A stretch of 36,637 nucleotides of DNA, from NCBI GenBank assembly GCA_030605565.1, contig JAUWIB010000125.1, forward strand, positions 1 to 36,637. Direction: 5' to 3'. Positions 3,630 through 36,520 of this stretch are shown in pieces. Every line of letters starts with the position of its first letter. The first letter of the stretch is position 1. The stretch is from a bacterium (GTDB lineage Bacteria; Zixibacteria; MSB-5A5; GN15; FEB-12). The translations under genes were made by a program, and so were the position numbers. The notes under the pieces were generated by a model. The model saw nothing but the letters and a program-made list of their open reading frames with translations, did no database searches and was not told the DNA's origin.

Positions 3630-4766
3630 CTAAAGCGTCGACGATGATGTCTCAGCGTCCTTCGAGCTGACGCTCGCCATGACTTCGCGGAATTCGTCGA
3701 CGACTTGCTGCGCTTCGATGTCGTGCAGATGGCCCTCGTGCGACGACACAACCGAGCCGCATTGCTGTCGGTACGGTTTCCAGGAATGGTAGTTGCGCAT
3801 GTGACCGCAGTACAGTCCGACGACCGGGATTTTCATCAGTCGTGCGATATGGATCAGCGATGTGTCGGGACTGACGAACATATCCACATGATTGATTACC
3901 GCCGCAGCGTCGAGCAGCGACAACCCCTCGGGAACCAGGAACGCTGTTCCTTCGCGACCTTGAAGGAGTTGCCGACCACGTTCACGATCTTCCCCGGTAC
4001 AGATTATGATGAAGCGCGCCATTGGCAGGTGGCGAGCGATACCGTCGAGCACTGCAGCGTATTTCGAAATCACCAGTGTACGCGTCGGACTGCCGGCAGA
4101 GATATTGAGACCCACGCAAAACTTTCCGCTCACACCAATTGACTTGACGAAAGTCGCCGCTTTAGCCTGGGACTCTTCGGGCATGTGAACGGGGGAAAAC
4201 GGGTCGATTGTCGCCGGACTCAGGCCGAACAGGTTGAAGATCAGCAGTCCGTTGTCGACATTGTGCTCCTGCCCGTCACGTTGATAAGGTTCGCAGTAGT
4301 CGTAGAACCGTCTGAGATCCTGCTTGCGGGAGGCGGCGGTGATCGAACCGTTGCCGATCAGTTTGGTCAGCAGCAGCCCGGTCACCGAGTCGAGACAGAT
4401 GGCATCAAAGACTATATCGAAACGCTTAGCCTTGAGGCGACGAACCAGCGGCAGATCATCAAGGATGTTCTTGCGATAAATATGTACAGCGTCGAAGACG
4501 GGATCGTTTTCAACCAACTGTTTGTTCAGCGGTGACGCCAGAATCTCGATCCGCAATCCGGGGAACTCCCTCTTGAGAGCGTGAGTTGCAGGAATGATCG
4601 ATATCATGTCTCCCAGCTTGTCGGGACGAAGGATCAGAATCGATCGTACCTTTTCCGCCTGCACCGGGTAGTGCGAGGGATCTCCCTTCTTGAAGAAAAG
4701 GCGAAAGAGGGGGTGCAGAAATCGCTTGAACGCCTTCTCTGTTGTTTTGACGCCACGTGAGGGCAC
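3630..4766 (-). CDS. Family 9 glycosyltransferase, heptosyltransferase-like (second copy)
   Basis: Second GT9 enzyme of the LPS-type operon, 378 residues. After a basic N-terminal segment (about residues 1-40) it has the GT9 opening SILILRPDKLGDMISIIPA, followed by IEILASPLNKQLVENDPVFD. The nucleotide-binding domain shows GLNISAGSPTRTL and then MFVSPDTSLIHIARLMKIPV, where DTSLIHIA stands for the heptosyltransferase D-x-G-P-x-H-L-A motif. It starts with GTG at 4766, overlapping the stop of the upstream exporter gene by one base (TAGTG), with GAAGG 7 nt before the start. The catalytic-region glycine and proline of the motif are replaced by Ser and Leu, so its donor sugar may differ from heptose. 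It is not closely similar to the other GT9 in this operon. Confidence 0.86.
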   Translation of the reverse strand: MPSRGVKTTEKAFKRFLHPLFRLFFKKGDPSHYPVQAEKVRSILILRPDKLGDMISIIPATHALKREFPGLRIEILASPLNKQLVENDPVFDAVHIYRKNILDDLPLVRRLKAKRFDIVFDAICLDSVTGLLLTKLIGNGSITAASRKQDLRRFYDYCEPYQRDGQEHNVDNGLLIFNLFGLSPATIDPFSPVHMPEESQAKAATFVKSIGVSGKFCVGLNISAGSPTRTLVISKYAAVLDGIARHLPMARFIIICTGEDRERGRQLLQGREGTAFLVPEGLSLLDAAAVINHVDMFVSPDTSLIHIARLMKIPVVGLYCGHMRNYHSWKPYRQQCGSVVSSHEGHLHDIEAQQVVDEFREVMASVSSKDAETSSSTL

Positions 4767-8263: not shown

Positions 8264-8448
8264 GACACAGCCTGGAAGCGACAGGTGGGTTCTTCAGCTT
8301 CGTAGGTTGGAACCCCTGCCCCGAAGGGGTCGTCCTGAGCGGAGTCGAAGGGCGAGGTTCCGACAACATGTCAAGAACTCAGGGCTCCCGACGCGGGGCT
8401 CTGTTGAGTAATTTGAGAGTCGGAACCCGCAAGGGGGTTCCGACCTAC
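8264..8448 (-). repeat. Dispersed intergenic repeat 'E', long copy
   Basis: Read on the minus strand it begins GTAGGTCGGAACCCCCTTGC and includes a 10-bp perfect hairpin GTCGGAACCC / GGGTTCCGAC (8417-8442). The middle carries the sequence CTTCGACTCCGCTCAGGACG, which is widespread as an intergenic repeat in many bacterial genomes. The same sequence, with about 65 nt missing inside, occurs at 36401-36520 on the plus strand. In both places it lies downstream of the 3' end of a secreted-protein gene and in the same orientation relative to it. Confidence 0.8.
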
Positions 8449-8450
8449 GG

Positions 8451-8507
8451 GTCTGCCCGTTTGAACGACGTATCCAAGGTAACCAAGGGGCAGACGAGGA
8501 CGTCTGC
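8451..8507. repeat. Nested inverted repeat with GACGAGGACGTC core
   Basis: GCAGACG-AGGA-CGTCTGC (8490-8507) is a perfect 7-bp palindrome. An outer pair GTCTGCCC (8451-8458) / GGGCAGAC (8488-8495) overlaps it, so two alternative hairpins compete. The core AGACGAGGACGTC recurs in the 'B' repeats at 12737, 28104 and 30263. Confidence 0.6.
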
Positions 8508-8548
8508 CGCCCACAAGCACATAGTTCTCCATAATTCTCACGGGCACA

Positions 8549-12736: not shown

Positions 12737-12788
12737 GTGCGCGGTGGACGTCCTCGTCTACTGCGCTGGCATCCAAAGGCCGGCGCAC
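12737..12788 (+). repeat. Dispersed repeat module B, diverged copy
   Basis: Begins GTGCGCGGTGGACGTCCTCG and ends GGCCGGCGCAC. The first 28 nt match the 5' part of the copy at 30263 with one change; the second half is diverged and shorter, but the terminal CGGCGCAC is kept. GTGCGC at one end and GCGCAC at the other form terminal inverted repeats. Confidence 0.65.
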
Positions 12789-20767: not shown

Positions 20768-20937
20768 TCCGGCACTCACCGTACCACCGACGAATGTGTC
20801 AGGACCCTGACAGGACCACCGACCGCCATGTGGAAACAGAAACTTCGCATTAGCCAGCGTCCTGCTCAATCTGCTGCCAAGGTCTTGTAGTGTGATGAAC
20901 TTGTCAAGTTTGTATGTTTGTGCGCAAGGCGCCGGCG

Positions 20938-24152: not shown

Positions 24153-27100
24153 CTACGGGCAGTCGACTGGAGGTGGTCCTCCTGTGAACATATAGTCGAC
24201 CAAATGCACCAGATCGGAGATGTCGATGTCGGACGGTCCATCGGACGGCGGATTAACCGGACCACTACCGTCAATGTTGGCCTCTTCCCAGCATGTTGGC
24301 GCCGGACCACTGTTGAACATGTAGTCAACAAGATAGACCAGGTCGGAGATGTCAATATTATCACTACCATCGTAGTCGACGTTACCGCGGATCGGCAGCA
24401 TACAGCAAGTACCACAACTCGGCAGGATTTCGGCACGGAACCAGTCGTATGCCTGGGTGGCACTGTTGTAAAGGTCCGCCGAATCCCCTTCCATGATAGT
24501 GATCAAAGCAGTGTATACATGAAGAGTGTCCTGAGCGTCCAGCGTGTGGTTGGCGAAGTATGTCATTACCGCGTGCTGATCGACCGGCGTCGGATCGGCG
24601 GAGAAGCCGGCCTGCTGCATGTTTTCGTACATCTCAGCAGGCACGAAACCGCTGTTCGGCCAGACGTACACCGTGTTGTCGGCGGTGTAGGCGCCGTACG
24701 GTCCAGCGGTGTCGAAGGCGCAAGTGTCATTGTAGTGAAAACCGAGCCACGCCTGCCCGCCGTACCGGTCGGTGCAGAGTTGGCAGCCGGACTGATCTTC
24801 CTCCGTGCCCCGCAGGTAAATGAGTCGGACCAGGTCGTCATACTGATAGTTGCCGGTATTCGGGGAGCCGCCATCGGAGGGGATATCCCAGTCGATGGCT
24901 TCACCGATGGCCAGTCCGGTGTGGGTCTGGCCGTCGTATGAGTAGACGCGCAACAGTTGGATCACGAAATTGCAGGTCGGATTACCCACCGGCGCCCACC
25001 AGGTTTTCTCAAGAGCCAAAGTTGAGTCCTGGGTGACAAACGTGCCGCTCTCATAGACCTCGCAGGTCGGACCACTCTGAGTCGGCACCGGCAATCTTTG
25101 GTCGTCGACCAGGTGGTACCGATTGTCTCCAAAGATTGCCCAACCGGCCACAATTTCCTGCCCATTGTCGTAACATATCACCGGTGAACCATCGTAGACG
25201 TAGATTCCCTGCCACGGCTCGCAGTCGCCGAAGTTGGCGTAGTCAAGGTTTGCTCCCCACTGACCTTGCTTGCCAAAGTTGCCGTTGGTGCCGACGATCA
25301 GTTGCGTACACCCAGTGCTCACCGTATCCCACATCGGCACGCGATAGTCACAGGCATCGCCGACCCCGTCACCATCGCTGTCCTCCTGACCGGGGTTCCA
25401 GGTGTAGGGGCAGTTGTCGTCGGGGCAGGTGTTGCCGGCCACGCCGGGGTTGCCGAAGCCGTCACCATCGGAGTCGGTGCAGTCGTCGCAGACATCGCCG
25501 ACCAGGTCACCGTCGGCATCAGCCTGATCCGGGTTGTAATCGTCCGGACAGTTGTCGCATTCATCCATGATGCCGTCACCATCGCTGTCCGTGACGCCGG
25601 GGCAATCGATATTGGTCATAAACATCGAGCGACCATGCGTCCCGGCCACTAACTTGCGCGTCGGGATATGAAACGCCAGGTCGTGCACAGTCGAGATCGG
25701 TGCGCCGTTATCGATCGGGTACCAGTTGGCGCCGCCGTTATCGGTCGCCCAGACGCCGACGTCGGTGCCGGCATACAGCCGGTCGGCGATATGCGGGTCG
25801 ATAATCAGGTCGTTGACCGGAATGTCCGGCAGATCACCGCTTACGGACGTCCAACTCGCCCCGGTGTTGTCGGTGCGAAAGATATGCGGCATCATCTCCG
25901 ACCACTGATAGCCGGAGATAGTCACGTAGGCGATCTGGGCGTCGTACGGATCGGTCACCACTCGCGTCACCCAGCGGTCCGGGAACCCGGCGCTGACGTC
26001 GGTCCAACTGTCGCCGCCATTGGTAGTGACCTGGACGCGGGCGTCGTCGGTGCCGACCCAAACCACCTGGGGATTAGCCCGGGAGACGTCGATGGTCGTA
26101 ATCGTGCCGTGGTTGGGTTTGTCGGGGTACGGGCCACCGGTCAGTTCGCCGCTGACAACATTCCAGTTCAGAGCAGCGTCGGAGGTTTTCCACAGACGAT
26201 TCGATCCATAGTAGAGAATGTCCGGGTTGCGCGGATCCATCACGATCGGCGTGTTCCAGTTGTGACGGTCACTGCTGTAGTCGATTCCGTTCATGGCCCA
26301 GTCCCAGCCAAAGCCGCCGTCGGTCGATTTGTACATGTGTCCCCACTGATATTCACAGTAGATGACATCCGAACTGCGCGGGTCAACCAGCGTGTAGAAA
26401 CCATCGCCGCCGAAAATGTGATCCCAGTCATCCAGCGCGCCGGTGAGAGTTCGATTAGTGCCGTTGTCCTGAGTGCCGCCATAGAGGCGCTGGGGTTGCA
26501 GCGGGTCGATACTGATGGCATAGAACTGGGTGTTCGGCATGTTTTCCAGTGGCGTCCATGAATAGCCGCCGTCACTGCTGATATTCATTCCGCCATCACA
26601 GCCGGCGTAGATCATGTCCGGATCCGAAGGGTTGATCCACATAGCGTGATGGTCGACATGAGTCGCGCCGGTCACATTGCTCCAACTGGTCCCTCCGTTG
26701 AGGCTGCGGTAAAGTCGCACGCCCAGCGAAAACACGGTGTTGGGGTTGCCGGGGGACACTCGCACCTGGCCGAAATACCAGCCGAAACCGCCGAAGGTGC
26801 CTTGCAGGGCGCCGTCATTGACCCGGTACCAATTGGCGCCATAATCATCGCTGCGATACATCCCCAGCAGGTCGTAGGTGTTCAGGTTATTGTACAGGGC
26901 ATAGCTGGTGCCGGTGTTGGGCTCCATGGTCAATCCGATCCGGCCACAACTATCGATCGGATCGGGCAAGCCGTTGGCACTGGTCAGAAGCGTCCAACTA
27001 TCGCCGTGATCGGTGGAGCGGTAAATGCCGCTGGTGATGCCACCGTAGATTTTGTGGATGTCGACGTAGCGAACTTTCTGCCACATCGCCGCCAACACTA

Positions 27101-27911
27101 TTCCCGTGGTGGGGTCGTAGGCGACATCGATACAACTGGTCGAGTCGGAAACATACAACACCTGCTCCCATGTCGAGCCGCCGTTCTGCGAACGATATAG
27201 TCCCCGATCCGGGTTGGTGGCGCCGAAATGCTTGCCGGCCGCGGCCACGAACAGCGTTTCCGGCCGCAACGGATCGATCACGATCCGACCGATATGGTAA
27301 CTTGAATCGAGCCCTACGTGGGTCCAGGTTGCCCCGGAATCAGTCGACTTATAGATGCCGGCGCCCTCGTAAGTGTCAGCGGCGGCGTTGGCCTCACCGG
27401 TACCGACGTAGATGGTGCCAGCGTCCCAAGGGTGAATCGCGATAGCACCAATCGATGGCGTGCCGACGTCGTCGAAGATCGGCGTCCAACTATTACCGCC
27501 GTCATACGACTTGAATACACCCCCCGCTGCGGCGCCGGCATAGACAATGTTCGGCTGGCTGGGGTGCACGCCGATATCCGTAATGCGTCCCGGGATGTTG
27601 GTAGGGCCGGCCTCACCCCAGCTTATGGCCTTGGCGTGGTCTGCGTACTTAAGGCGAGCTGCTTGTGTCGCCTCTACCGCCGCCAGTTGTTTGCCCGGCG
27701 GGATAGTGTTGTAGGGGCGCGAACGCTGGTCGTAGAACCAGTCGTTGGGACGCTGCTTGAGTTTCGGGACCTTGCCTTTGTTCTTCCAGATGTAAGGGAT
27801 GATCTCGGTGTAGAAGGCGTTGTCCGGTTCTGTCGGACGGTCGGGCATCAGCCAGAAGGCAGCCGCAGCCACTACGATTGCACAGCCTGCATACAAGAAA
27901 AGTTTCTTCAT
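24153..27911 (-). CDS. Secreted Asp-box beta-propeller protein with TSP3 repeats and dockerin-like C-terminus
   Basis: 1252 residues from ATG 27911, chosen because GAGGA lies 5 nt before it; the in-frame ATG at 27923 has none. An N-terminal signal or anchor is present ([20 protein letters not shown]). Residues about 55-765 form a sortilin/VPS10-like propeller with many Asp boxes: [54 protein letters not shown]. Residues about 770-850 hold calcium-binding thrombospondin type 3 repeats ([38 protein letters not shown]). Residues about 855-1165 are an unrecognised domain with paired Cys and Trp-rich strands. The last 80 residues are a dockerin-like pair, each ending [13 protein letters not shown] or [13 protein letters not shown], with Asp-rich calcium loops ([15 protein letters not shown]). 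No type IX sorting tail is present, unlike the other secreted proteins here. Confidence 0.88.
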
Positions 27912-28013
27912 GGCGTTCCTCATTCACAAAAGAGTGAGCACGTCTGACCGTGCCTGTAGTTCGAGTTAGTACAACGACCTCAGAGTCGGTAAAGTGATTC
28001 CCATTATCGTTTT

Positions 28014-28041
28014 ATAATAGCTCAAGGGCCGGTAATGTCAA
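28014..28041 (-). promoter_or_regulatory. Promoter of the propeller-dockerin gene
   Basis: Minus strand: perfect TTGACA (28041-28036), 16-nt spacer, TATTAT (28019-28014), immediately followed by AAAA. The transcript leader would be about 95 nt. This is the strongest sigma70-type promoter in the window. Confidence 0.6.
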
Positions 28042-28103
28042 TTACAAAACGAGTTGGACTTTCCCCAAAAAATCTATGGGTTGAACAGTGATATTTGGTA
28101 TTT

Positions 28104-28177
28104 GTGATCGGCGTACGTCCCCGTGCGCCGACAACTTTTCGGGGTGAACGCGGTAGACGAGGACGTCCACGGCGCAC
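28104..28177 (-). repeat. Dispersed repeat module B, left inverted copy
   Basis: 74 nt. Its reverse complement matches 30263-30338 almost perfectly apart from a 7-versus-9-nt centre and two single changes. The two copies face each other across the orphan gene at 28740-30158. Terminal segments GTCGGCGTAC and GCGGTAGACGAGGACGTCC are conserved. Confidence 0.85.
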
Positions 28178-28183
28178 AAAGCA

Positions 28184-28216
28184 CCGCGCAGGGGGCGGCC
28201 TTGTGTCGTCCCAATG
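28184..28216 (-). repeat. Dispersed repeat module A, copy 2
   Basis: Reverse complement CATTGGGACGACACAAGGCC and on, 31 of 33 identical to 12606-12638. On the minus strand module B follows after 6 nt, giving an A-B composite. Confidence 0.75.
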
Positions 28217-28243
28217 GAACCCACTTCCAGTTCTCCTTCCTCT

Positions 28244-28313
28244 GTCATACTGGCGAAAGCCAGTATCCAGTCTTCGAATACAGACCTGGATGCCGGATCA
28301 AGTCCGGCATGAC
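28244..28313. repeat. Double-hairpin dispersed repeat 'D'
   Basis: GTC, then hairpin ATACTGGC-GAAA-GCCAGTAT (28247-28266), about 23 nt, then hairpin ATGCCGGA-TCAAG-TCCGGCAT (28290-28310), then GAC. ATCCAG (28265-28270) and CTGGAT (28286-28291) add an inner pair, so the whole element is an imperfect palindrome. Its reverse translation 'CHAGLDPASRS...WILAFASMTE' is the familiar repeat-derived pseudo-peptide found annotated in many genomes. Confidence 0.8.
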
Positions 28314-28739
28314 ATGTCGTTCCACTTTCTGAAAACACCAACCCCTTGATTCAATTTACATTAACAGAAATCTCCAACCATTTCTGGGGAAGGTCCTGCA
28401 AAACGGTGTGTAGACGAGCGTCGAAGCTCCGCTAACGCAACTTGGAACGTCACTGACTGGCTTGGACAATTGGTAAGTGGGTGAATTGCCGAAATGGCTT
28501 AATCTACGGCCGAAGTTGCCGATTAGAGAAAGAGAGTGGCTTCAGCAGGGTGGTGCTGATTGCCGCCCACAAGAGTGAGATGGCGGCATCATGATGAGGG
28601 GGAGGGCACGTCCGAATTGAGGTGACCGCGTAGACAGTTATAGCTGTCGTGGACGCGTCGATTGTTTGCCTACTAAATGTCAACGTGACCCCTGGGACGG
28701 ACAGTTCTGGTCCACCGGAAAGGGACAGAGATACAGCGT

Positions 28740-30158
28740 ATGGGAAATACAGCTTGCCCCCTGGCTATGAAAGACGCCGGAAAAACCGCTAACACCGGCA
28801 ACACACCGAGCAAGATACTGTTTGTAAACTGGCCAACCGACCAGCAAGCTGACCATCATTGCGATCTACTGGCCGGACATGACTTTAGCGATTATGGTAT
28901 TGTGTTTCTGGACCCGCTGGAGTTCGCTGTTGCGCACGGTCTGCGGTCCAATTGCGAACGTCTGTCTGAATCCGAGTACATTTCCTACAATGAACGCGAA
29001 TTCGGTCACTTCCTGACCGGCATCAAACGAGCGTCCGAGTCACTGCGGGAACTGCTGCATAAAGGCGGTCTGCTTGTGATCCGTTCGCAAATACCGAATT
29101 CCCATATCAAAGTCCGCAAACGGTCATCTGCCGGTAGCGGCTCCTACACCGAATCGGTTTTGTCGGCGTTTTTCTGGCTGGAGGATATTCTGGGCAAGTA
29201 TACATTCAATAGTTGCCGAGTGAAAGCCATCCGATTCGTGGCGCCGGGCGATCCCCTTAGTAAGCCGTTTGCGCGGGCCGGTGTCGACTGCGTGCAGACG
29301 CAGGACTTCATTGAAAAGGGTCAGCGTGAGGTGGTTGCGGCGGGTGGAGCGTATTTCAAAGATCCGGTGGTCTCCCGCATCGTCTGCGATGACTGGCGTG
29401 GGCTTGTCTATGTCATTCCGAAATTCCGCGTCCTGCACGAGGAACGTATGCTGGTTGAGGCGTTTCAACAGATCGTCGGTTGCCACAAACGTCAGTCCCG
29501 TCGGCCCACGTGGATAACCCGCTACAATACCGAGCTGGATGAATTGAGCCCATTCAAAAGCGATATCGATCTGGCTAAGGCACAGTTGGAGGCGATCCAT
29601 ATACAACTTACCAAGCTCCAACGCAAACAAGATGACCTCCGGCGGGTGACGAGTATCTTGTACCAGTGCCGCGAAGAACTGACCTCGGCGGTTTCGATCG
29701 CCCTTGCATTGCTGGAGTATGATGTCCGGGTACTCGACGCCTGTGAAAACGGCCAAGTGTTGGAAGCAGTGGAAAAGGGGACTAAAGGTGCGCGTGTGAT
29801 TTTCATGGCGGCGGCCTGCGATGAGGGACCACTGCCGTCATCGAACCTGGTCCAACTCATAGATATCGTCGATAAGCAACAATCCAACGTCCGGGTCAAG
29901 GGCGTCCTGATCGGCAACGCTGATCGTAGCAAGCCGCCCGAGGAGCGTACCGCCTGGTTTGACCAGGATTGCCTCGAGTTGGCCCGGCAGTCCGATCTCT
30001 GTCTGCTGCCGACACTCGAACTCTTCACCATCGTCAGCCATCTTTTGAGACGGTCCGACTCTTCAAACCTCAAGAGCATCAAGGCCTCTATCCGTCGCGA
30101 CATCTTCGCGTGTGATTCTCATTTCGAGCTAAATCGCAAGAAATACGGTCTGGTGTAG
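28740..30158 (+). CDS. Orphan protein with coiled coil and degenerate restriction-endonuclease-like C-terminal domain
   Basis: 472 residues, not a gene I can name. Residues about 26-250 look like a cytoplasmic alpha/beta domain (ILFVNWPTDQQADHHCDLLA, YGIVFLDPLEFAVAHGL, ELLHKGGLLVIRSQIPNSHI). Residues about 268-305 are a heptad-like coiled coil (AKAQLEAIHIQLTKLQRKQD). Residues about 306-472 resemble the small PD-(D/E)xK-like domain that ends KGVLIGN...PPEER...F and LCLLPTLELF; these family traits are kept. The place where active members have E-V-K reads VIFMAAACDEGPLPSS, so catalytic Glu and Lys seem lost. No signal peptide or membrane helix. The start is uncertain: no good ribosome binding site precedes ATG 28740. 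It stands alone between inverted repeat copies. Confidence 0.75.
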   Translation: MGNTACPLAMKDAGKTANTGNTPSKILFVNWPTDQQADHHCDLLAGHDFSDYGIVFLDPLEFAVAHGLRSNCERLSESEYISYNEREFGHFLTGIKRASESLRELLHKGGLLVIRSQIPNSHIKVRKRSSAGSGSYTESVLSAFFWLEDILGKYTFNSCRVKAIRFVAPGDPLSKPFARAGVDCVQTQDFIEKGQREVVAAGGAYFKDPVVSRIVCDDWRGLVYVIPKFRVLHEERMLVEAFQQIVGCHKRQSRRPTWITRYNTELDELSPFKSDIDLAKAQLEAIHIQLTKLQRKQDDLRRVTSILYQCREELTSAVSIALALLEYDVRVLDACENGQVLEAVEKGTKGARVIFMAAACDEGPLPSSNLVQLIDIVDKQQSNVRVKGVLIGNADRSKPPEERTAWFDQDCLELARQSDLCLLPTLELFTIVSHLLRRSDSSNLKSIKASIRRDIFACDSHFELNRKKYGLV

Positions 30159-30168
30159 TTGCTCCATT

Positions 30169-30191
30169 GCCCAGGCCGGACGAGCCTGGGC
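30169..30191 (+). terminator. GC-rich hairpin after the orphan gene (possible terminator)
   Basis: GCCCAGGC, loop CGGACGA, GCCTGGGC: perfect 8-bp stem starting 11 nt after the stop codon. No T run follows, so termination is not certain. Confidence 0.4.
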
Positions 30192-30262
30192 ACGGCGGCC
30201 ACCTGTAGGCGGCTGTGTTTGTGGTGTCCTGCCATTCTACGAAACAAACCAACAGCGATTTA

Positions 30263-30338
30263 GTGCGCGGTGGACGTCCTCGTCTACCGCGTTCACCCCG
30301 CGATACATAGTCGGCGCACGGGGACGTACGCCGACCAC
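30263..30338 (+). repeat. Dispersed repeat module B, right inverted copy
   Basis: 76 nt starting GTGCGCGGTGGACGTCCTCG and ending GGACGTACGCCGACCAC. Inverted relative to 28104-28177. The rest of the 30159-30526 gap holds the hairpin above and the promoter of the protease gene. Confidence 0.85.
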
Positions 30339-30391
30339 GAGATTAGCTTGTGTCCTGAGGACGTAGTCACGCGGCGGCAACGCTTATTGCC

Positions 30392-30419: not shown

Positions 30420-30526
30420 GGAAGAGATGAGACTTCAGCTAAACAGGACCGCTAACCGGTTCGTCTCATACGTGGAAACCCCAGAGTCGGCCCCTCACGG
30501 CGTACTACTTATAGGATATGTATAGT

Positions 30527-33500
30527 ATGACGACAAAACCTGTTCGAGCGTTTGCTGCCGTGATGGTCATGGTGCTACTCATGGTAGCATCAGGCGAAGC
30601 CGTGTACCGTGACAACGGACCGATCGGTCCGGTGCCGGGGAAGTTCATTGTGAAGCTTAAGCCACAGGCCCGTATGGAGACATTGAACCAGTCCCTCGGC
30701 CGTGGAAATCGTCTCGAGAGGTTCTCGAACCTGCAACTGAGGGAAGACCTCATCGGTTCAGAAGGTTTCTCTCGCGTACACATTTTTCGCACCGAATTCA
30801 AATCGCTGGCCGCGGCCGATGTGGCGGCATTACTCGGCGAAGATAACGTGGAATATGTGGAGCCGGATTATTACATTCAGTTTTTCGCCATGCCGGCCGA
30901 CTCGCTTTTCGTTAACCAATGGTACCTCTATAATGAAGGCCAGTCTTATTACGGTATTCTCCGTAATGATGGTTACTACAACGATGTCCTGGTTACGAAG
31001 ACGGGCACCATCGAAAAGGACATGCGGCTCTGGCCGCTGTACTATTTCTCACCCGCCGAGACGACCAAAGTGGTAGTGGCGATAGTCGACACCGGGGTCG
31101 ACCTGTTGCATCCGGAACTTCAGGGTCGCTTCTGGCGAAACGACGACGAGATCCCGAATAACGACATCGATGATGACCATAACGGGTTTGTAGACGATAC
31201 TCTGGGGTACGACGTGTCGGGCGATGTCCAAACACTGTTCGACCCGATCGGGGATAACGACCCGACCGACGAAGTTGGTCACGGCACACATATCGCCGGG
31301 ATCGTGGCGGCCAATTCGAACGCTCCAGGGGTCGCGGGAATCGTGCCGTTTGCCGAAATAATGCCGGTTAAGATTCGTCCCAACGCCACTACGGCCGTCG
31401 GTGTGGCGGGTATCATTTACGCTGTCAATGCCGGCGCCCAGGTGATCAATATCAGTTGGGGGACACCGTTCTTGTCGGGTCTGTTGGAGGAAGCGATGGA
31501 GTTCGCGCGAGCCAACGGCGTGTTCGTAGCCGTAGCGCCCGGTAACACCGGCAGCAATGACCGCTTCTTCCCGGCTGCATACGACTCGACTTTTGCCGTC
31601 GCAGCCGGTAACTCCGACGGCAATATGACCGATTTCTCCACCTGGGGTGCTCACATTGACATCGTGGCGCCCGGTCTCGATATCCTTTCGCTGAGAGCCG
31701 ACGGTACTGACATGTACGCTAAGGGCGGCGAACCCGACGTGCGGATCATCGACAGCCTGTATTATCTGGCCGACGGAACATCTATGGCAGCACCGATGGT
31801 GGCCGGTGCGGCGGCGCTCCTGAAGGCGTTCAGGCCGGACCTGGCGCTGGACGAACTGGAAGAGATACTCAGAATGGGCGCTGACGATCTGATCGATCCC
31901 CTCGACAACGGAGACAGCCTTGTCGGTCCCGATACTGTTTGTGGTTACGGCTACATGAATGTGGCCGCATCGTACGACCTTCTGTGGCATGGAGGCATCC
32001 ACATAGTGGAACCTCAACGGCGGCACAGATACACTAGTGACTTCGTAGTTCGTATTGCCCCGGTCGCATCATACGAGGGAAGCTGGCAACTGGACTACTC
32101 CGTTAGTCCCGGGTCCGAGGATTGGCAATACCTGGCATCTGGGACATCACTGCCGGGCGATTCAGTGGCTTACTTATTTGACGATCAGTCGCAGGAAGGG
32201 TACCTTAATTTCCGGCTGACCGATCAATACGGCAATCGGTCGTATACCAACTGTGTGCACATCCGGCGCCAGAAACTCGAGTTGACGGCGCCAATCGACG
32301 GATCGGAAGTGAAATACCATATTCCGGTCTTTGGCAGCGCTTACGGTCCGGAGTTTGACTCCATGCTCGTTGCCTATCGCAAACAACTGGGCCCCCTGGT
32401 GCGTCTGGATGGTTCCACCGGCGAGTACTTCGATTCACTGCTGTTTGACTGGTCGGTGTCCGGCGTGGACACGGGGATATTTCATGTTTATCTCTATGGT
32501 TACTTCGGTTCCGGTTTGGTCATCGATTCAGCTACTGTGAATGTGGTGTCGGCTTTTGCGACCGGTTGGCCTCAAAGCATAGCTGGTCGACCGGGTCTGA
32601 CCGCCTCCTGCGCTGATCTCGATCGCGACGGCACCCGCGAGATCATTATCCCGACCAGTGGTGGGGTCTATATGTTCCATGCCACCGGAGTTCTGGCCGA
32701 CGGTTTTCCGGTTCTCCCCGACATCAACTTCCGAAGTGTGCCGGCGATATATGACGTCGATCGCGACGGTCAGGATGAGATTATCTGTACCAGCCGCGAC
32801 AGTCTGCACGTCTTCAACTTTGACGGTAGCAATGTCGACGGTTGGCCGGTGGCGATGTTCACCGGCCAGATTCCCTTCGGGTACGGCTTTCCTAATGTTA
32901 CGGTAGCGCAATTGGGGCAGGGCGAAGATTCGGCGATTGTCCTTATCAACAAGATCGGGCAGATTCTCGCCTACGAGTTCAATGGTGATCCGTACTTCTA
33001 CTCTCTGGATGGGTTGTTTGCATCGTTTGACCCACGGATATCCGATTCCTACGGTTATGGCGGGCCGACCTCACCGTTTGTTACTTCCACCGATCTGGAC
33101 GGCGATGGTTTGAACGAGGTGATTGCCTCCTACAGTTCGCCCGAACCAACCAGCGGTCTGGGCCTGTTCGACGCTCGCACCGGACTGCCCGCCTATGGTA
33201 TGGACGCGCCTATCATAGAGAGCATACCGAGAGTGTACGGCACCGTTCTGGCCGACCTGACCGACGATGGTCTTCCCGAAATCATTACCTTGGGCCGCGA
33301 CAACGCTGGGGTCATGACGATTTGGGTCAAGACCAACGGTGTCGATGATCTGCCGGGCTGGCCGGTAGCGATACCGAGTGTCGAACTGTGGATCGGCTCC
33401 TATCCGATTGCAGCCGATCTCGACCTTGATCGCATCCCTGAAATACTCTGCACCTTCTTCGAGTATGACATTGCTTCGTTGTACATCTTTCGTGCCGACG

Positions 33501-34219
33501 GCACGCCGTATGTCGATCGCGACGGGTGGGCCAGCGGCGAAGCCTTCACGGAGCCGGTAACCTTTGGCACACCTACCGTGGCTAACCTCACGGGCGATGA
33601 TTATCCGGAGATTATCATCCGTTCCGGCCACATTCTACCGGGCACCGGCACTGAGCAAGTCTATATCCTCGACTATCAGGCGCAGCCGCTGCCCGGCTGG
33701 CCGGTGGCAACACCCACTCGGCCCTCTCAGGTGTTCTCCTCCCGATACCCACCCCTGGTTGAGGATTTGGACAATGACGGTCTGGTCGAGTTGATTCTGG
33801 TGACTGACGGACTTGAAATCCTGGTGTGGGATTTTGATGCTTCCTCTGATAACGACCGCAATCGTGGTCGCTTCCTGATGGACAATATCAACAGCGGCAT
33901 TCTGCCTCCCTCGCTGTTGCCGACGGCCGTTGAGGACGACCCAACCACCTTGCCTCAGACCACTCACCTGGCACAGAACTATCCCAATCCGTTCAATCCA
34001 ATTACAACTATCGAGTTGAGCCTGCCGCGTCTTACCCACGTTGAGTTGTCTGTTTTCAATATTCTCGGCCGCAAGGTAGCTGTTCTTGTCGATGGCGTTA
34101 TGAAAATGGGGCGTCATCGCATTCAATTCGACGGCACTGATCTGGCCAGTGGGGTCTACTTGTACCGCATGAAAACATCCGACCAGACGACTACCAGAAA
34201 AATGGTGCTTATGAAATGA
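30527..34219 (+). CDS. Secreted subtilisin-like serine protease (S8) with FG-GAP/VCBS-like repeats and sorting domain
   Basis: 1230 residues. I take ATG 30527 over ATG 30518: AGGA is 10 nt before the former but only 1 nt before the latter. A signal peptide (AAVMVMVLLMVASGEA) is followed by an inhibitor-I9-like propeptide (PGKFIVKLKPQARMETLNQ ... VEYVEPDYYIQ). The S8 catalytic triad is intact: Asp188 in VAIVDTGVD, His252 in EVGHGTHIAG, Ser419 in DGTSMAAPMVAGAAALLK, with oxyanion Asn340 in APGNTGSND. Residues about 680-1125 contain FG-GAP/VCBS-type Asp-rich repeats (DLDRDGTREIII, DVDRDGQDEIIC, DLDGDGLNEVIA, DLDNDGLVELIL), a likely calcium-stabilised propeller. The last 85 residues are a FlgD-like sorting domain (NYPNPFNPITTIELSL, VFNILGRKVAVLVDG, GVYLYRMK). 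It overlaps the next gene by ATGA. Confidence 0.95.
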   Translation: MTTKPVRAFAAVMVMVLLMVASGEAVYRDNGPIGPVPGKFIVKLKPQARMETLNQSLGRGNRLERFSNLQLREDLIGSEGFSRVHIFRTEFKSLAAADVAALLGEDNVEYVEPDYYIQFFAMPADSLFVNQWYLYNEGQSYYGILRNDGYYNDVLVTKTGTIEKDMRLWPLYYFSPAETTKVVVAIVDTGVDLLHPELQGRFWRNDDEIPNNDIDDDHNGFVDDTLGYDVSGDVQTLFDPIGDNDPTDEVGHGTHIAGIVAANSNAPGVAGIVPFAEIMPVKIRPNATTAVGVAGIIYAVNAGAQVINISWGTPFLSGLLEEAMEFARANGVFVAVAPGNTGSNDRFFPAAYDSTFAVAAGNSDGNMTDFSTWGAHIDIVAPGLDILSLRADGTDMYAKGGEPDVRIIDSLYYLADGTSMAAPMVAGAAALLKAFRPDLALDELEEILRMGADDLIDPLDNGDSLVGPDTVCGYGYMNVAASYDLLWHGGIHIVEPQRRHRYTSDFVVRIAPVASYEGSWQLDYSVSPGSEDWQYLASGTSLPGDSVAYLFDDQSQEGYLNFRLTDQYGNRSYTNCVHIRRQKLELTAPIDGSEVKYHIPVFGSAYGPEFDSMLVAYRKQLGPLVRLDGSTGEYFDSLLFDWSVSGVDTGIFHVYLYGYFGSGLVIDSATVNVVSAFATGWPQSIAGRPGLTASCADLDRDGTREIIIPTSGGVYMFHATGVLADGFPVLPDINFRSVPAIYDVDRDGQDEIICTSRDSLHVFNFDGSNVDGWPVAMFTGQIPFGYGFPNVTVAQLGQGEDSAIVLINKIGQILAYEFNGDPYFYSLDGLFASFDPRISDSYGYGGPTSPFVTSTDLDGDGLNEVIASYSSPEPTSGLGLFDARTGLPAYGMDAPIIESIPRVYGTVLADLTDDGLPEIITLGRDNAGVMTIWVKTNGVDDLPGWPVAIPSVELWIGSYPIAADLDLDRIPEILCTFFEYDIASLYIFRADGTPYVDRDGWASGEAFTEPVTFGTPTVANLTGDDYPEIIIRSGHILPGTGTEQVYILDYQAQPLPGWPVATPTRPSQVFSSRYPPLVEDLDNDGLVELILVTDGLEILVWDFDASSDNDRNRGRFLMDNINSGILPPSLLPTAVEDDPTTLPQTTHLAQNYPNPFNPITTIELSLPRLTHVELSVFNILGRKVAVLVDGVMKMGRHRIQFDGTDLASGVYLYRMKTSDQTTTRKMVLMK

Positions 34220-36400: not shown

Positions 36401-36520
36401 GTAGGTCGGAACCCCCTTGCGGGTTCCGACTCTCAAATTACTCACCAGAGTCCCGTGTCGGGAGCCCTGAGTTCTTGACATGTTGTCGGAACCGCGCCCT
36501 TCGACTCCCAGGCTGTGTCA
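36401..36520 (+). repeat. Dispersed intergenic repeat 'E', internally deleted copy
   Basis: Starts GTAGGTCGGAACCCCCTTGC, contains the 10-bp hairpin GTCGGAACCC / GGGTTCCGAC (36405-36430), and runs to CCAGGCTGTGTCA. The first about 105 nt match the reverse complement of 8342-8448 with only a few changes; then about 65 nt present in the 8264-8448 copy are missing and the last 12 nt match again. Confidence 0.85.

Follow-up and report, generated by a model that had tools for sequence, protein, structure and literature searches.

Two separate insertions, a solo REPIN and a MITE-like element carrying a REPIN, flank a resident gene in a Zixibacteria genome

Two unrelated insertions, a solo REPIN on the right and a MITE-like element with a nested REPIN on the left, very probably explain the inverted repeats that flank the gene at 28740-30158 (+ strand) in the window, and their reading as independent insertions of known element kinds is well supported. 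The window is the whole stretch of DNA analysed, 36,637 nt long, which forms contig C13 of a genome of 3.39 Mb assembled into 152 contigs (G000). The initial annotation had described nearly identical inverted copies of a repeat, repeat B, around a single gene, and these are real, lying at 28104-28180 (+) and 30260-30338 (-). They differ at two bases and in the spacer within a GTG...CAC core, and there is no transposase ORF between them, both as first reported. The lengths and distances needed small corrections: the copies measure 77 nt (left) and 79 nt (right) instead of 74-76 nt, and they stand 559 and 101 nt from the gene where about 560 and 105 nt had been given.

The gene is an old resident of this locus, and the two repeats arrived later, each on its own. 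In the comparison with related genomes that the initial annotation had set beforehand as its refuter, G005 (L045; ~92% DNA identity) and G003 (L047, L048) carry the gene in the same position and strand with neither repeat. Alignments to these two genomes skip from window position 28056 to 28399 and from 30259 to 30342, and at base level the left insertion amounts to ~343 bp and the right to ~79 bp net. Protein-level synteny also places the gene beside both of its neighbours (24153-27923 and 30518-34219) in G001 (L046), where its product is only 54% identical, and beside the left neighbour in G002. All relatives compared show the gene segment in one orientation.

The left element and its position beside promoter-like sequences

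The left element is MITE-like, as seen in its terminal inverted repeats (TIRs), multiple copies, target duplications and empty sites. It occupies 343 bp (28054-28396, +), from a promoter-facing end, TTGGACTTTCCCCAAAA, to a distal end, TTTCTGGGGAAGGTCC, and is absent at the orthologous sites of G005 and G003. The left boundary first drawn at 28104 is therefore misplaced, since the repeat B copy that starts there is just the middle of this longer insert, which also holds other hairpins. Imperfect copies of a target duplication adjoin the element at 28042-28053 on the promoter side (TTACAAAACGAG) and at 28397-28408 on the distal side (TGCAAAACGGTG). The TIRs are TTGGACTTTCCCCA/GGACCTTCCCCA (pattern GGAC[CT]TTCCCC). 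Full forms of the family are non-coding, ~340-450 bp long and present in several copies. Elements related to that of the window span ~335-450 bp, and 127-bp remnants made up of the promoter-facing end and repeat B are numerous. Target duplications are perfect at L052 (12 bp, CGCAATTAACAT) and L138 (10 bp, GCGAATACCC), ~10 bp long at L167, matched at 9/10 positions at L159, and imperfect, at ~10-12 bp, in the window. Empty orthologous sites were found for the left element of the window (against L045 and L047) and for the L057 and L056 sites. A form of the MITE without repeat B exists in G005 (L217), and the REPIN is therefore cargo.

The element is presumably mobilised by a DDE-type transposase supplied in trans. 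Searches of the loci examined for an autonomous partner, using the TIR pattern, ORFs lying between facing TIRs and a 140-bp element end from G005, yielded no transposase, and a scan of IMG/VR with the MITE end gave no match. The 140-bp end is common to several G005 contigs, and the one complete copy examined proved to be another short MITE form; contigs C78, C80, C185 and C204 of G005 all stop ~140 bp inside a near-identical MITE end, probably as assembly breaks at a multi-copy element. Elsewhere in G005, a 333-bp MITE-like insertion (L045, 3986-4319; equivalent to window position 20926) with the TIR CTGTTGAAAAA carries another REPIN family and is missing from the window. REPINs seem often to be nested in unrelated MITEs here.

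The GGAC end of the MITE faces a sigma70-like promoter that reads away from the element; it is always this end, in most cases 13-17 bp upstream of a promoter-like sequence of the form TTGACA-N16..18-TATnnT. In the window, the MITE with its REPIN cargo would have inserted immediately upstream of the -35-like box of a divergent gene, producing the imperfect duplication of ~10-12 bp. This gene, the left neighbour (24153-27923, -), encodes a sortilin/BNR-repeat secreted protein and is served by the predicted promoter that adjoins the MITE, with a -35-like box TTGACA at 28036-28041 (-), 14 bp from the GGAC end, and a -10-like box TATTAT at 28014-28019 (-) at 16-bp spacing.

The same arrangement recurs across the family. 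Sites were compiled from G000, G003, G005 and G006 with orthologous duplicates removed, giving 39 independent sites (that of the window and 38 others), those of the relatives having been gathered after the pattern was seen in the window's own genome. A match to TTGACA of at least 5/6 at 12-18 bp from the element was found at 29 of these 39 sites, with 25 of the 29 at 13-15 bp, as against 2/38 flanks of solo repeat B copies, 1/20 distal MITE ends and 4.0% of random positions. A combined score of at least 9/12, with a -10 at 16-18 bp spacing, was reached at 25/39 MITE sites, compared with 0/38, 0/20 and 0.7% in the respective controls. Promoter-like sequence is present in relatives without the element at the window site, where the TGTCAA/TTGACA motif already stands in the empty sites, and at L056, L025, L057, L059 and L060. 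For L059, L060 and L025 the other flank is rearranged or diverged in the relatives and only the promoter side is informative; the search of relatives with site flanks left out those of L040 and L042 and covered the right flank of L025 only in part. A separate observation concerns L056/L069 (G000:C93), where a 127-bp insert containing repeat B is flanked by a ~60-bp direct duplication that includes a promoter-like sequence. G003, G005 and G006 lack the insert and hold this ~60-bp sequence only once.

These promoters are predicted from consensus matches, and the placement beside them is strongly patterned in a way that points to promoter-directed insertion of the MITE family. It can be proposed tentatively, with close to an even chance of being right, that the transposition machinery of this family selects sigma70-type promoters, inserting in one orientation and with the duplication immediately upstream of the -35 box. 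Target choice may then depend on the -35 region itself or on a protein bound to it. The main alternative, which is unlikely but deserves weight, is that the left element has at its GGACTTTCCCC end a mainly regulatory (activator/UP-like) site, that elements survive only where this site stands at a suitable distance from a -35 box, and that the positioning thus reflects selection instead of target choice. Fixed distance and orientation agree with such a role, as does the presence of some elements at orthologous sites shared between species (e.g. L058/L157 and L054/L164). However, the target duplications fall exactly between element and -35 box, the promoter sequences pre-exist in empty sites, and the MITE form without a REPIN is positioned alike at most of its sites; moreover, neutral intergenic insertions elsewhere should persist too, and few are seen. 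Target choice is favoured over selective retention because the promoter pre-exists in relatives and the duplications, as at L052 and L138, lie between the element and the -35 box, though the precise spacing could come partly from selective retention.

Repeat B and the RAYT genes

Repeat B has the architecture of a REPIN (PMC3116915). It consists of two inverted hairpins with well conserved arms (mean column identity 90% over the whole alignment) around a spacer that varies in length and sequence, with the consensus TTT-GTGGTCGGCGTACGTCCCCGTGCGCCGAC-AACTTTTCGGGGTGAA-CGCGGTAGACGAGGACGTCCACCGCGCAC-WAA. The heads point outward, being GTGG on the left in nearly all copies and GTGC on the right, and sister REPs in the genus have GTGG. 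The two arms have diverged from each other (19/29 identical), and a single strand folds into both hairpins (z = -4.4 versus shuffles). The nested copy of the window, a REP doublet (28104-28180, +), comprises a hairpin GTGATCGGCGTACG-TCCC-CGTGCGCCGAC, a spacer and a hairpin CGCGGTAGACG-AGGA-CGTCCACGGCGCAC, and the solo copy (30260-30338, -) is free of target duplication and absent in G005 and G003. Two further REP arms of the same superfamily were located in the window by arm-pattern match, at 8498-8514 (-) and 12737-12753 (+).

The 3.39-Mb genome holds 40 matches to the repeat B query, ~37 of them near full length; 33 of these 37 are intergenic and the other four lie within spurious-looking ORFs. 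A single arm occurs in 270 places at no more than one mismatch, against three for a reversed-pattern control. Full copies were also found in G003, G005 and G006, and single arms in order-level relatives, some of them near RAYT genes; a scan of IMG/VR with the B arm gave no match. At L064 (G000:C89, 962-1033), half of the right hairpin (ACGAGGACGTCCACCGCGCACGAA) is repeated in tandem 24-bp copies, resembling local slippage at a hairpin end.

Many copies of repeat B sit within MITE remnants, as would be expected if B were a left-behind internal part of the MITE and not a RAYT substrate. This explanation is improbable. Roughly half of the copies stand alone, ending in TTT-GTGG...GCAC-WAA and lacking any MITE sequence, and the existence of a MITE without B and the single arms of order-level relatives, some near RAYT genes, also speak against it. 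Furthermore, two solo insertions have empty sites and lack a target duplication (the right copy of the window, and L035, which is empty in G005 and G006), as expected for an HUH/Y1 mechanism.

Mobilisation of repeat B is probably due to RAYT proteins, of which the genome encodes several candidates. RAYT-type Y1 genes number five in the window's own genome, with matches in 35/37 genomes searched. The RAYT gene on C93 is flanked by five GTGS-headed hairpins related but not identical to B, and a B copy lies ~0.2 kb away. Those of G005:C310 and G027:C1 have inverted hairpins of the same superfamily on both sides; these REPs are close to the right arm of B, which matches the G027 hairpin at 25/28 positions. 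The arms flanking the G005 RAYT gene match both arms of the other REPIN family, that of the insertion in L045, at 28/28 and 26/27 positions. Set beside each other, the RAYT gene and arms of L127 (G005:C310, 1265-1895) and the abundant REPIN at L045 (~4090-4170) show that the REPIN resembles the RAYT unit minus its gene. A RAYT gene with exactly the two arms of B was not found in the window's own genome. Judging from these sequence relationships, a RAYT-type HUH/Y1 transposase is the most likely agent of repeat B mobility, and the assignment of B to a particular RAYT is presumptive. For the right copy of the window, a solo REPIN that lacks a target duplication, such a transposase would have worked on single-stranded hairpins.

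The bracketed gene

The resident gene encodes a 472-aa cytoplasmic protein and is kept in place across the genus. Although initially called an orphan, it has homologues in 5/6 congeneric genomes and in several order-level relatives, with tandem copies of the family in G016 and G039 and a single occurrence in its own genome. It had also been said to differ in strand from its neighbours, which holds for the left neighbour (24153-27923, on the minus strand) but not for the right (30518-34219, on the same strand as the gene). Sequence searches of Pfam, NCBIfam, PADLOC and PDB gave no reliable family for it. An AlphaFold model built from 11 homologues (mean pLDDT 82.7) found weak partial matches only in a fold search (TM normalised to the query no higher than 0.28). 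The N-terminal domain weakly matches class-I glutamine-amidotransferase-like folds (GMP synthase subunit A-like proteins and GH42 enzymes), the middle is a long helical, coiled-coil-like stretch, and the C-terminal domain has a faint restriction-endonuclease likeness (MspJI, E = 0.006). The model suggests an amidotransferase-like domain, a coiled coil and a possible nuclease-like domain, an assignment to be read as a lead only given the low TM values.

The bracketing itself needs no explanation, because an inverted pair this close is expected by random placement. In a genome-wide simulation with 40 randomly placed copies, the mean number of inverted neighbour pairs within 2.2 kb was 0.49 and the probability of at least one was 0.39. 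Copies sit close together elsewhere too, such as the two on C95 (L032) separated by 300 bp. Of the three options first offered, the supported one is that a common repeat inserted by chance on each side of the gene. An inverted repeat pair of a different family also occurs in the window (8341-8448 and 36401-36508; 108 nt, 96%), its members lying 28 kb apart.

The other two options, that the gene is a mobile or an invertible unit, were rejected, as the gene is in place without the repeats and in one orientation in relatives. That homologous or site-specific recombination makes 28104-30338 an invertible switch is very improbable: inverted repeats of ~77 bp that are nearly identical could on rare occasions recombine, but no relative shows the inverted arrangement, with G005 and G003 agreeing in place and strand, none of the neighbouring proteins scanned is a recombinase, and the repeat belongs to a genome-wide family of dozens of copies. 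A scan of the window against Rfam gave no matches. A non-autonomous mobile cassette or composite transposon, made up of the gene and its inverted repeats, has next to no chance of being correct: near-identical inverted repeats do lie on both sides with no other gene between them, but the repeat-free gene in G005 and G003 and the gene order conserved in G001 refute it for this genus, the two repeats belong to distinct insertions whose boundaries differ, a single copy of the gene was found in its own genome, and copies of B elsewhere in that genome flank unrelated genes. A false lead is thereby removed, in that bracketing inverted repeats alone do not mark mobile genes in REP-rich genomes.

Relation to known systems

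Repeat B resembles the described REPINs (PMC3116915) in its two inverted REP hairpins, conserved ends, variable spacer and length (~76 bp here, 71 bp between ends in the GI type), and in being extragenic, present in dozens of copies and accompanied by RAYT genes in the same genome. It differs in its diverged arms (19/29), in a right head of GTGC and not GTAG or GTGG, in the location of some copies inside a MITE with TIRs, and in that an exactly matching RAYT was not found in its own genome. In the GTAG- and CGTC-tagged REPs, including REPtrons (PMC3733652) and the substrates of TnpA-REP cleavage (PMC8266576), headed palindromes likewise flank Y1 transposase genes in inverted orientation, whereas the heads here are GTGG and GTGC.

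The left element shares with the bacterial MITEs Correia/NEMIS, MITEAba12 and BrickBuilt (PMC10969869) its short, non-coding form, TIRs, target duplications and intergenic location. Some bacterial MITEs adjoin promoters or carry outward promoters (PMC10969869); in contrast, this one supplies no -35 or -10 box and sits upstream of pre-existing promoter sequence at a constant spacing and in a single orientation. IS5 of Escherichia coli also inserts upstream of promoters, and the abstracts of that work describe stress-linked upstream insertions at individual operons and do not mention genome-wide fixed spacing to -35 boxes (PMC5493358, PMC11894529). Tn7 at attTn7 (PMC2918618) is similar in one respect, namely insertion in a set orientation and at a constant distance from the sequence that is recognised; the target here is instead a generic promoter-like sequence, the duplication is ~10-12 bp and no Tns genes were seen, so membership is not claimed.

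Searches of open-access literature on promoter-targeted bacterial transposition gave nothing equivalent, and the MITE pattern suggests a mode of target selection absent from the papers searched, one that would link transposition to promoter recognition. This pattern matters more than the verdict on the bracketed gene and is directly testable. A MITE that selects promoters would, if the proposal is true, spread its REPIN cargo to gene control regions, and its logic would parallel, in bacteria, that of the retrotransposons that insert beside promoters via the transcription machinery.
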